Source: a virus
DNA: 25,720 bases
Strand: one strand, 5' to 3'
Virus record (IMG/VR): IMGVR_UViG_3300010368_000095
Coordinates: 1 to 25,720 of that record
Shown: positions 11,946-14,497 of the stretch, piece by piece
How the letters are laid out: every line of letters starts with the position of its first letter
How positions within the stretch are numbered: the stretch's first letter is position 1
The notes under the pieces: model-generated
What the model saw: the letters and a program-made list of their open reading frames with translations, nothing else
Databases searched by the model: none
Told to the model about the DNA's origin: nothing
Position numbers and translations under genes: made by a program

Positions 11946-12109
11946 TAGTCAGTCTCCTTCCAAACACGCACTATAACTTCATTCTTGTTGTTCTTTAAGA
12001 ATTGAAAGTTCACTTCATTCAAGTCACTGTTTTCATCAGTCAGTAGTCCAACACAACAATCATGTAGGTATTTTCTATCAATCCCATCATCATAATCTTC
12101 CATATTCAT
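11945..12109 (-). CDS. 54-residue acidic hypothetical protein
   Basis: The ATG at 12109 is preceded by AAGGAGACTAC. The protein starts MNMEDYDDGIDRKYLHDCCV and ends VNFQFLKNNKNEVIVRVWKE plus TD. It is acidic at the N-terminus, has a Cys-Cys pair, and a C-terminal beta-strand pattern 'EVIVRVW'. No family is recognised. It is followed by a 26-residue membrane peptide with a 1-base overlap and preceded by a 9-bp perfect hairpin. Confidence 0.55.
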   Translation of the reverse strand: MNMEDYDDGIDRKYLHDCCVGLLTDENSDLNEVNFQFLKNNKNEVIVRVWKETD

Positions 12110-12130
12110 GTAGTCTCCTTGTTGATAAAT

Positions 12131-12158
12131 GATAGGTAGACTCGGAAGCCTACCTATC
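12131..12158. other. 9-bp perfect hairpin between early genes
   Basis: GATAGGTAG (12131-12139) and CTACCTATC (12150-12158) enclose a 10-nt loop. No T run follows on either strand, so this is more likely an attenuator, a processing site or a protein site than a full terminator. It separates the 137-aa gene from the tiny genes downstream. Confidence 0.5.
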
Positions 12159-12167
12159 TAGGTTATG

Positions 12168-12581
12168 TTACTTAGAAATCTTACCAGCTAGTTGAGGTCT
12201 AGCATCTGAAGTTCCATCTGCATTAGGCGTAGTGTATTTATCACGCAATGCCTGTATCTCATCTACTGATAGATGAGTAGTAGTAGCCTTGGAACCTCTC
12301 TTAGTAGGTGACCAAGTATCACCAGTAAGTTGTTCATGAACAGATTGGTCTGCGTCATGTTCTTGCTGAACTATCTGAATGATAGTATCAGTCATCTCTG
12401 CATATGCAACTTGGTTTGCATCAATCTGTTCTACAATCTTACTCTTTAAATAAGTTAATCTATTGTAGCTTGCGTAGCAGGAAGATTCTGCTCGTTTTTG
12501 ATAAAGGTATTCGTCCTGTTGCTCAGACCCAGTTGATGACCATGTTGCTATTGCCAGTTTATTTGCTATTAACTTTTTCAT
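12168..12581 (-). CDS. First gene of the leftward operon, 137-residue hypothetical protein
   Basis: The ATG at 12581 is preceded by AAGGAACATATA. The protein begins MKKLIANKLAIATWSSTGSE, is hydrophilic and mainly helical (residues ~20-85), and ends in a Thr/Ser/Lys-rich tail with 'HLSVDEIQALRDKYTTP'. There is no membrane segment and no family I recognise. It is the gene nearest the structured intergenic region. Its first ~42 codons and its leader are duplicated, inverted and decayed, at 12771-12948. That duplication suggests this start region matters or is prone to rearrangement. As the first gene of an early operon it could be a host-takeover protein; this is speculation. Confidence 0.65.
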   Translation of the reverse strand: MKKLIANKLAIATWSSTGSEQQDEYLYQKRAESSCYASYNRLTYLKSKIVEQIDANQVAYAEMTDTIIQIVQQEHDADQSVHEQLTGDTWSPTKRGSKATTTHLSVDEIQALRDKYTTPNADGTSDARPQLAGKISK

Positions 12582-12598
12582 TATATGTTCCTTATTTT

Positions 12599-12793
12599 AA
12601 ATCGCCTGACCATACAGGCATGCTTCATCTAACAGGAATAGCCAAACTGGCTACGCCAGCCACACAAAGAAACGCCTGCCACATCTATCGCACAAGAAAA
12701 ATCGACGAGGGCAGCCCGTAGGGATACGTCTATTATTCTTGTGTGACCAGTTTGACTAATCCACTTAGATATGCCTGTATGGTCGGGGGATTT
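12599..12793. ncRNA. Candidate structured RNA / long palindrome at the centre of the inverted duplication
   Basis: On either strand this 195-nt segment folds as one rod. The outer stem is 12599-12621 with 12771-12793 (21/23). The middle stem CAAACTGG (12643-12650) pairs with CCAGTTTG (12747-12754). The inner stem 12691-12707 pairs with 12727-12743 (15/17) around a 19-nt GC-rich loop, with a small side hairpin CTGGC/GCCAG at 12647-12659. As a leftward RNA it would form the 5' leader of the 137-aa gene, ending 18 bases before its ATG. It could equally be a DNA cruciform. No known ncRNA family is recognised. Confidence 0.45.
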
Positions 12794-12816
12794 ACAATAA
12801 GCCTTACGAACATATG

Positions 12817-12948
12817 GTGACAAAGTTGGTAGCCAATAAACTTTTCCGGCAATAACAATATGGTTAGCGACGCAGTGGCTGTGCATCAGGACACCTTTAT
12901 CGGAAACGAGTAGAATCTCTTTTGTGTAGTGTAGTTTACAATAGATTA
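12817..12948 (+). pseudogene. Decayed inverted copy of the 5' end of the 137-aa gene
   Basis: From GTG at 12817 the + strand encodes V/M-T-K-L-V-A-N-K-L-F-R-Q and then stops. The intact gene starts M-K-K-L-I-A-N-K-L. DNA similarity continues past the stop to 12948 with shifts of frame, then ends. The leader similarity (AATAAG, GAACATAT) also extends upstream of the start. There is no open frame long enough for a product, so this is a remnant, not a gene. Confidence 0.6.
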
Positions 12949-12981
12949 GAGGTCCGAGCGGGAGCGAAAGGCGTCCGTGCC

Positions 12982-13020
12982 GTACAGGTGACACACGACT
13001 GTGTGTCATGCGGCCTGTAC
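12982..13020. promoter_or_regulatory. Large two-part palindrome upstream of the late genes
   Basis: The outer arms are GTACAGG (12982-12988) and CCTGTAC (13014-13020). The inner arms TGACACAC (12989-12996) and GTGTGTCA (13001-13008) enclose GACT, with a 5-base bulge on the right. The inner half contains the 12-mer GACTGTGTGTCA that also makes up the two origin repeats at 8902 and 8968. It may be a binding site for the initiator or an operator between early and late operons. Confidence 0.5.
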
Positions 13021-13022
13021 TT

Positions 13023-13070
13023 CACAGGCAAAATCAGGGTTGTCCAACCTGATTTTAGCAGTCTCCTGTG
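13023..13070. other. Nested inverted repeat
   Basis: CACAGG (13023-13028) pairs with CCTGTG (13065-13070). Inside it AAAATCAGG (13030-13038) pairs with CCTGATTTT (13048-13056), extended by TTG/CAA across a 2-base loop with one bulged G. It lies two bases after the preceding palindrome. A third hairpin, GCCTGC/GCAGGC, follows at 13110-13126. Three hairpins in a row just upstream of the small terminase gene could be a packaging or replication site. Confidence 0.45.
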
Positions 13071-13109
13071 GCCGACTACAGCTAGACCAAGCGAGGACAC
13101 CTATGATTG

Positions 13110-13126
13110 GCCTGCCCTTAGCAGGC
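13110..13126. other. 6-bp GC hairpin
   Basis: GCCTGC (13110-13115) and GCAGGC (13121-13126) enclose CCTTA, and the flanking GATT/AATC could lengthen the stem. There is no T run, so it is not a terminator. It is the third hairpin in the series between 12982 and 13126. Confidence 0.4.
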
Positions 13127-13153
13127 ACCGTAATCTATGGAATATGGGTAGTA

Positions 13154-13218
13154 TTACGACTATTTAACACTGTTTGCTATATTGTGAGTTGACAAGTGCA
13201 TTTAACTAAAACTATCTG
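13154..13218 (+). promoter_or_regulatory. Candidate late promoters upstream of the small terminase gene
   Basis: Two overlapping sigma-70-like candidates are visible. One has an extended -10 TGCTATATT (13175-13183) with a weak TTACGA at 13154-13159. The other has a perfect -35 TTGACA (13189-13194) with TATCTG (13213-13218) after 18 bases. The 11-mer ATTGTGAGTTG at 13181-13191 recurs at 16211-16221 before another virion gene, suggesting a shared control site. Confidence 0.4.
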
Positions 13219-13245
13219 TGAAGGGGGAGAGGTAAGGAGAGGGGG

Positions 13246-13632
13246 TTGTTCCTGATGATACCTGTAAGTAATAGAAAACTAACACGAAGACAGATAGCTT
13301 TAGTTGATGCATATGTAGCAAATGGAGGGAATGTCACACAAGCCGCAAAAGAAGCTGGATATGCAGAGGGAGATTCGGGCAGAGTCAGCGCACAAAGGGC
13401 TTTGAAGACTGCACACGTCAAACAACACATGATGCAAGTAGTAGCAGATGAGTTTAGTAAACATGCTCCGATGGCATTGGGTCAGTTAGCTGGACTAAGC
13501 AAGAGAGCTAAGAGTGAGTATGTACAGCTGGAAGCGAGTAAGGATTTACTTGACAGGGCAGGATTCAAGCCCGTAGATAGAAGTCAAGTACAGGTGGCTG
13601 GTGACATTCGTGTCAGTATAGACCTGTCGTAA
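13246..13632 (+). CDS. terS: Terminase small subunit
   Basis: The protein has 128 residues from TTG 13246 (AGGAG six bases upstream); the in-frame ATG at 13255 would remove three residues and has only a G-run at a usable distance. 'LTRRQIALVDAYVANGGNVT' then 'QAAKEAGYAEGDSGRVSAQR' is the N-terminal helix-turn-helix of Terminase_2-type small subunits ('ltpkQ..Fv..Yl..gN.tqAA..aGYs'). A central oligomerisation region and a short C-terminal tail follow. TerS recognises the packaging site and loads the large subunit. The site it recognises is commonly near this gene, and the hairpin series just upstream is a candidate. It is the first gene of the rightward late operon. Confidence 0.82.
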   Translation: MFLMIPVSNRKLTRRQIALVDAYVANGGNVTQAAKEAGYAEGDSGRVSAQRALKTAHVKQHMMQVVADEFSKHAPMALGQLAGLSKRAKSEYVQLEASKDLLDRAGFKPVDRSQVQVAGDIRVSIDLS

Positions 13633-13641
13633 CAGTGGTAG

Positions 13642-13690
13642 GGGGTCAAAAACTGCAACCACTCTGTTGCAATAGGTCTAACCCCAGCAT
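13642..13690 (+). terminator. Nested hairpin followed by a T run, possible attenuator
   Basis: GGGGT (13642-13646) pairs with ACCCC (13681-13685), with TGCAAC/GTTGCA (13654-13659/13666-13671) inside, followed by AGCATTTTTCT. The long internal gaps make it a weak terminator. It may lower expression of the genes after terS. Confidence 0.35.
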
Positions 13691-13711
13691 TTTTCTTTAG
13701 AAAGGTTCGAT

Positions 13712-14497
13712 ATGGAAAAGAAAGAGAGTAGTTCGATAGAGATGGGAAACATTGAGTTTCATCATGCATTAATGAGTGAAGATAATTATGACCCTATTGT
13801 AGCGTTAGGTTTTAATCCTAGTGTAGCGCATCACATTCCTGACAGTGAGGCTATAAATTTTTTATACGATGACAATAAGAAAGTAATGGCTGGTATGTAT
13901 GTACCTGACACTCTTAACTATGGGAATGTATCTCAGGCTTTTGCTGATGCTCAGGAGGCGGCTGGTGGTCCAGTGACTGTTGAGTCTGGTGAAGATTTAG
14001 TTATGACATTTGGTTCGTTTGCGAATAAGAGTGCGGTTTGGAATCATGAGTTTAGACACAGGGGTTTAAGGATATTGCGTCAGGAGTATAGTGACGATGA
14101 AATAATGGAGCGTGTTCCTCTTAGTTTTATGGAAAGATTGAGGGACTTTGCTGGTCGTAGTATTAATAAGACTAAGGTTATGGAGGGTTTGTTAGACTCT
14201 ATGAGTAAGCCTGATGGTCAAGAGTGGTTAATGGCAGCTTATGATGACTTTGATAATGTAGGTTCTGGTGTTATTGATGAGAGCAAGTTATTAACTCCTG
14301 ACCAAGTTACAGAGTTTATGGATGCTTTGAACTCACTAGCGAACGACCACTTAGAAAGAATACAAAAAGAAAAGTATGAAACAAATCTTAGGAAAAGGGG
14401 ATTAGATAGTGAGCCTGTTTTTAACCCTACTAATCGTGCAGGTAGTGGTGGCATTAGTAGTACATTCATAGATACTGAGGAGTCTATGCTTCAATGA
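13712..14497 (+). CDS. Hypothetical protein with an HExxH motif between the terminase genes
   Basis: The protein has 261 residues, with an AAAGG ribosome site. Residues 112-116 read HEFRH in 'AVWNHEFRHRGLRILRQEYS', a match to the HExxH zinc-protease signature set in a predicted helix. The acidic helix that follows offers possible third ligands. The upstream part contains 'HHIPDSEAINFLYDDNKKVM' and 'GMYVPDTLNYGN', conserved in appearance but of unknown function to me. The C-terminal third is acidic and helical, ending 'SSTFIDTEESMLQ'. Among packaging genes a protease might mature capsid or portal proteins or belong to the virion; this is inference. Its stop overlaps the next start in ATGA. Codon use is GT-rich, as in the following two genes. 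Confidence 0.7.
   Translation: MEKKESSSIEMGNIEFHHALMSEDNYDPIVALGFNPSVAHHIPDSEAINFLYDDNKKVMAGMYVPDTLNYGNVSQAFADAQEAAGGPVTVESGEDLVMTFGSFANKSAVWNHEFRHRGLRILRQEYSDDEIMERVPLSFMERLRDFAGRSINKTKVMEGLLDSMSKPDGQEWLMAAYDDFDNVGSGVIDESKLLTPDQVTEFMDALNSLANDHLERIQKEKYETNLRKRGLDSEPVFNPTNRAGSGGISSTFIDTEESMLQ

Follow-up and report, generated by a model that had tools for sequence, protein, structure and literature searches.

Why would a phage keep the leader and the beginning of an early gene next to an inverted, non-coding copy of the same sequence? This question is raised by a locus in the window, by which we mean the whole analysed stretch of 25,720 nucleotides, a 25.7-kb virus record. The locus sits between two divergent gene sets: the leftward (early) one runs from 12581 and includes genes for a DUF932 protein, a RecE/YqaJ-type exonuclease and a RusA-type resolvase, and the rightward (late) one runs from 13246 with the small terminase, the large terminase and the head-tail connector. 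As judged by the large terminase, the closest isolate is Pelagibacter phage EXVC031P Hodr, with 64% identity. The reading that the sequence comparisons favor, with a probability of about 0.72, is a conserved, strand-specific long hairpin RNA locus on the plus strand, read towards the terminase genes and placed between the divergent early and late operons of mostly marine phages. The features on which the argument depends are the following.

12168..12581, minus strand: the 137-aa leftward (early) gene, an open reading frame with homologues, whose first 42 codons lie within the 5' arm of the hairpin
12456..12650, plus strand: hairpin 5' arm, which covers the leader, the start codon and codons 1-42 of the 137-aa gene in antisense
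12651..12746, plus strand: apical domain with its own stem (12688-12707/12727-12746)
12747..12948, plus strand: hairpin 3' arm, non-coding, which pairs with the 5' arm and had earlier been taken for a decayed gene copy
12949..13130, plus strand: extra structured segment with at least two local hairpins, conserved in the window's own clade only
13189..13218, plus strand: promoter-like TTGACA-N18-TATCTG, sigma70-like, between hairpin and terminase
13246..13632, plus strand: small terminase subunit (phrog_2538, E 4e-14; Terminase_2; alignment A4)

The inverted match between 12456-12680 and 12733-12948, which a first-pass annotation of the window had noticed, is confirmed by BLASTN at 155/220 (70%, E 2e-29), and the local score of the arms is 103, compared with 28.9 +/- 4.8 and a maximum of 44.5 in 500 dinucleotide shuffles. 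When 12400-13000 is compared by BLAST with the whole record, 12483-12918 matches the minus strand at 67% (E 2e-32). Within the repeat, the blocks 12591-12621/12771-12801 (90%), 12483-12508/12893-12918 (88%) and 12456-12467/12937-12948 (100%) stand out; a sliding scan of the window gives this repeat a score of 122 and the next best 25, which leaves it the sole large inverted repeat, and self-comparison thus yields a significant inverted match well beyond short blocks. The plus-strand copy of the gene indeed stops after about 12 codons, reading from GTG at 12817 to TAA. The earlier impression that the centre is the best paired part does not hold: once G-U pairs are allowed on the plus strand, the helix has hardly any interruptions and the pairing at its centre does not stand out. 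In a structure of 188 pairs, 98.6% of the pair cells from six distinct sequences are standard (G-U allowed, plus strand), although this figure is partly biased in favor of the structure, which was derived from the same alignment. Seven pairs changed on both sides, a number reached in 0/500 shuffles, and six of the seven are concentrated at the centre, where ACC/GGT in the window is replaced by GAA/TTC in relatives with retention of pairing. An assembly artefact was rejected, since many metagenome contigs and a complete isolate genome show the same structure.

The 137-aa gene is found at 85-100% identity in ten contigs, and those reaching far enough retain both arms, including a frame-shifting insertion and the stop in the plus-strand copy. 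The 3' arm is conserved almost to the degree of the coding arm. That one copy had decayed, as first supposed, is therefore not borne out, because the frameshift and the stop are fixed in close relatives. The aligned arms are similar and complementary in the relatives too, and the second arm resembles its own first arm more than the orthologous arm of the next clade. For the window and L021, arm identity is 0.84 within each locus, compared with 0.77 and 0.73 between the loci, and the same order is seen for L097/L149, L106/L123 and L186/L187. Independent drift of the two copies would not make the arms of one locus resemble each other more than their orthologues, and the ortholog tests gave no sign of a second arm drifting on its own. 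At its tip the apical domain has a 49-nt insertion in the L005 group, and in the L021 clade a related sequence can be recognized at the apex. The suggestion that the palindrome itself is under selection appears well founded in view of the co-evolving arms and the pairing retained across relatives.

Does the pairing concern DNA or RNA? Static mismatches in the arms, read on the terminase-sense strand, comprise 502 G-U and 259 A-C, compared with 409 and 352 expected from arm composition. In 22 disjoint ortholog pairs, some of whose sequences are near relatives of each other so that not all pairs are independent, 174 one-sided transitions interconvert Watson-Crick and G-U pairs (94 A/G, 80 C/T) and 78 interconvert Watson-Crick and A-C (42 A/G, 36 C/T). 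Two-sided changes lead from one Watson-Crick pair to another in 128 cases, versus 39 to a mismatch. A strand-biased mutation was considered as the cause of the G-U excess and rejected: where the partner permits G-U, differences of both the A/G and the C/T class are about 2.2 times as frequent, and since the same base differences are compared, with only the partner differing, a mutational strand bias cannot yield the excess. Two marks of a selected structured RNA are present, namely two-sided pair changes above shuffles and strand-specific wobble, the latter heterogeneous among clades. As the pairing is strand-specific and tolerates G-U on the terminase-sense strand, the element points to RNA. 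At the level of sequence, these comparisons demonstrate a widely conserved hairpin with co-evolving arms and strand-specific pairing, and we infer that it is transcribed as a non-coding RNA.

Often the partner arm is at the same time a stretch of a protein gene, and comparison of orthologous genes shows that the codons in the overlap are constrained at the nucleotide level. In the window's clade, synonymous differences per site amount to 0.04-0.11 inside the hairpin and 0.33-0.59 outside, with the switch at the hairpin edge, so that the suppression covers codons 1-42 of the 137-aa gene. The pooled synonymous rate in the overlapped gene is 0.147 inside versus 0.341 outside the hairpin; of the 11 pairs compared, among which some sequences are again near relatives of each other, 10 have the lower rate inside and one shows no difference. 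The encoded protein is a member of a divergent, conserved family of small helical proteins, and in all relatives an SD-like AAGGA/GGAGA precedes the ATG. AlphaFold2 predicts a helical hairpin (pLDDT 82), and searches of PHROG and Pfam gave no match. Foldseek returned weak helical-hairpin resemblances to T4 UvsY and to the RNA-binding ROP, of which the best (E 1.1) is not significant, and this modelled resemblance may serve as a weak lead only.

The distribution of the element was followed in relatives collected by a large terminase search and by a search with the 11-member small terminase alignment. This gave 115 usable upstream regions, reduced to 66 non-redundant ones, in which 1.5 kb upstream of the terminase gene was examined under strict scoring, and a self-inverted match was taken as significant if it exceeded all 60 shuffles. 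Such a repeat is present in 61 of the 66 regions, a minority of the matches being short or far upstream and possibly unrelated; the spans range from 59 to 1,149 nt, with a median of 274. There is one such element per genome. It is also found in the isolate Pelagibacter phage Hodr (OQ414635), at about 11,988-12,591 of that record, and in some MAG contigs, which carry it into more distant phages (L183/L184, and L186/L187 at 1.36 kb). The MAG contigs with the phage locus in L182, L186 and L187 are labelled Euryarchaeota and Rhodobiaceae; these are probably phage contigs binned into MAGs, and the labels do not show the host. The related phages MEP301 and Ss1 are without the element, and a DNA-level search of phage records for this region of the window gave no match. 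Burkholderia phage BcepC6B, a distant relative by its large terminase, has only a 98-bp near-perfect palindrome at the end/start of the genome record (L178:1-98). Across this sample the arms keep their complementarity while their own sequence turns over.

Among the loci with the 137-aa family (alignment A6), the start codon lies inside the hairpin in 25 of 25, and in L021/L101, L149 and L097 the first arm spans the entire leftward gene, with the second arm as its non-coding complement. In 36 loci without this family the hairpins are shorter, with a median of 150 nt, and many stand clear of the leftward gene, so that the hairpin core is independent of the 137-aa gene.

The origin of the arms had been ascribed to a template switch or hairpin-primed event. 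This is probably right for how the repeat arose, but it does not describe its present state, since the second arm is not decaying. As the copy spans the whole leftward gene in L021, L097, L149, L186 and L187, an inverted duplication is the natural origin. Arms of about 220 nt in L022/L029 compare with about 550 nt in their relative L021, and the extra part of the second L021 arm is complementary to the remainder of the leftward gene. We infer that copying of the flanking gene in inverted orientation (fold-back duplication) gave rise to the arms and lengthened them outward; the end of arm 2 would anneal to arm 1 and then be extended on the neighboring gene. Alternatively, the L022 line could have been shortened, rather than the L021 arms grown.

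The TTGACA-N18-TATCTG sequence at 13189..13218 is the presumed late promoter, and similar TTGACA-type sites recur between hairpin and terminase in many relatives. The preceding segment, 12949..13130, possibly belongs to this hairpin RNA as its 3' part. Its local hairpins are highly conserved in the window's clade, where one stem changed on both sides from CCTGC/GCAGG to TTTGC/GCAAA; the segment is absent in the L022 clade, and in L022 itself about 70 nt separate the hairpin from the late promoter. In the hairpin-TerS interval of L097, L157, L163, L164, L169, L174 and L175, palindromic TGACGTNACGTCA-like sites lie immediately 5' of the TTGACA promoter and are a possible regulator site for it. 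At the left foot of the hairpin, a TGTGTGTG stretch followed by an AT-rich block abuts the element in L093, L104, L120, L150, L151, L152 and L172, and this is possibly the hairpin promoter. A promoter common to all loci was not found at this foot, where TGTGTGTG-type motifs occur at clade level only. Another short conserved element, GGATGGAAGCCC-loop-GGGTCGAGAC..GGCTCGATTCACGACAGCC, with two small stems possible inside the closing stem, is present in 9 of 91 regions. It lies about 145-295 nt upstream of TerS in L120, L083, L147, L148, L158, L160, L162 and L167 and at -1139 in L123, and it is right of the hairpin except in L123.

Concerning the role of the RNA in the window's version of the element, we tentatively propose that a cis-encoded antisense or double-stranded RNA controls the first early gene when early expression gives way to late. 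The 5' arm would be antisense to the start of the 137-aa gene and the 3' arm would be the non-coding partner held complementary to it, and the hairpin could influence how the mRNA of that early gene is translated or degraded during this switch. An action on the 137-aa gene is proposed because all 25 hairpins beside that gene family enclose its start codon, i.e. they show the complementarity to the translation start region that is expected of a cis-antisense RNA. Against this role, an arm that is paired to its own complement makes a poor antisense RNA. Regulation of the 137-aa gene also cannot be the general role, because the 36 loci without the family have short hairpins, many of them clear of the gene, and hairpins that stand clear of a gene need another role. 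A wider idea, which we regard as doubtful, is that phages repeatedly copy the first early gene in inverted orientation by fold-back template switching, and that the resulting hairpin RNA is selected as regulator of this gene or as a linked decoy at the early-to-late switch, which would make it the bacterial-virus counterpart of gene-derived hairpin RNAs. If this is true, there are lineages whose hairpin RNA matches the entire first early gene in length.

The main alternative role, in our view an unlikely one, is that of a sequence-independent double-stranded RNA decoy or ligand, in which the rod-like RNA would occupy a host dsRNA-binding factor, nuclease or immune sensor. It shares the evidence for an RNA hairpin with the antisense proposal and differs in role only. 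It would agree with the conservation of pairing but not of sequence or length (59-1,149 nt), and a sensed structured RNA from terminase genes, cabRNA, is a precedent (PMC10686824). However, cabRNA is a defence target and not a decoy, no partner is known for the hairpin, and the enclosed start codon in 25 of 25 loci is left unexplained.

Rather improbable, yet still a candidate above all for the Hodr-like clade, is a purely DNA-level palindrome without functional RNA, whose arms would be homogenised by gene conversion or by template switching, or which would serve as a cruciform or single-strand hairpin in replication or packaging, for which a site adjoining the terminase genes would be suited. 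No G-U excess is seen in Hodr, L161, L186/L187 and several of the L139-L144 group, and mismatches, asymmetric between the strands overall, are symmetric in Hodr, L161 and L186/L187. The ratios of G-U to A-C are 5:7 in Hodr, 13:17 in L186 and 10:12 in L187, whose arms are very long and 88-94% paired, and the arms of L186/L187 are still more alike within than between loci. DNA-level homogenisation or a recent regrowth of the arms could dominate in such clades. At the centre of the window's hairpin the ACC/GAA differences form a cluster, the pattern expected from a template switch. On the other side, G-U exceeds A-C in both the A/G and the C/T class, and the ratios are strong in L149, L021/L101, L097, L010 and the window's clade. 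Conversion leaves this one-strand tolerance of wobbles unexplained, whereas a single-stranded DNA hairpin of the plus strand could in part explain it.

It appears very improbable that the structure forms on the minus strand, where the early mRNA would have a self-complementary leader in which the ribosome-binding site of the 137-aa gene is hidden. A transcript starting right of the hairpin would hold both arms, and some minus-strand promoter-like sites are present there, but the wobbles favor the plus strand and so do the fold energies of the alignment (-341 on the plus strand versus -293 on the minus strand). The decaying inverted gene duplicate of the first-pass annotation, with a second arm without present function, can hardly be upheld, since the frameshift and early stop in the plus-strand arm and its likely origin by inverted duplication are outweighed by co-evolving arms, strand-specific compensation and suppressed synonymous change in all relatives.

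The hairpin RNA locus that we favor would be an undescribed element which is nevertheless common in mostly marine phages related to Hodr; literature on pelagiphage inverted repeats, on Hodr and on long-hairpin phage RNAs gave no published description. It forces a protein gene, silent sites included, into co-evolution with a non-coding inverted copy, and its length varies between lineages from below 150 nt to above 1 kb. It would offer a way to test the use and tolerance of long double-stranded RNA during phage infection of bacteria, and the birth of hairpin RNAs out of gene duplicates where RNAi is absent.

Among known RNAs, the families of Rfam 15 (including GOLLD, ROOL, 6S and phi29 pRNA) gave no match at E <= 1 in 12000-13800 of the window. 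In Rfam searches of further loci, six had none at gathering score and nine gave one chance-level snoRNA match (E 0.43). A 6S-like RNA, considered for the rod shape, was rejected in the absence of an Rfam match and of a shared central bubble, and membership in GOLLD or ROOL was rejected as their covariance models were not matched. GOLLD and ROOL are large ornate phage RNAs of unknown function with multi-domain folds and conserved cores, often near tRNA islands and represented by Rfam families, and GOLLD also occurs in marine samples (PMC12286853). The hairpin RNA, presumed here from its sequence, would likewise be a large, strongly structured non-coding phage RNA, but it is a variable-length rod beside the terminase genes and has no Rfam family. 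The CBASS-activating bacteriophage RNA, cabRNA, lies inside the terS/terL coding sequence and triggers host defence (PMC10686824). Like the present element it is structured, largely double-stranded, located in the terminase region and not conserved in sequence between phages, whereas the element is a separate hairpin upstream of terS with no sensor known. The classical cis-encoded antisense RNAs of phages and plasmids are short; the hairpin RNA would also lie opposite the translation start of a neighboring gene, but its antisense arm is paired to its own complement over 60 to 500 pairs. We know of no bacterial parallel in which a protein gene forms one arm and a maintained non-coding complement the other, and to our knowledge bacteria lack RNAi machinery. 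The eukaryotic MIRNA and hpRNA loci encode gene-derived hairpin RNAs born by inverted duplication, and here too the hairpin is related to a gene and made of a piece of it together with the inverted copy; unlike in eukaryotic hpRNA, the functional gene itself is one of the arms, read in antisense.
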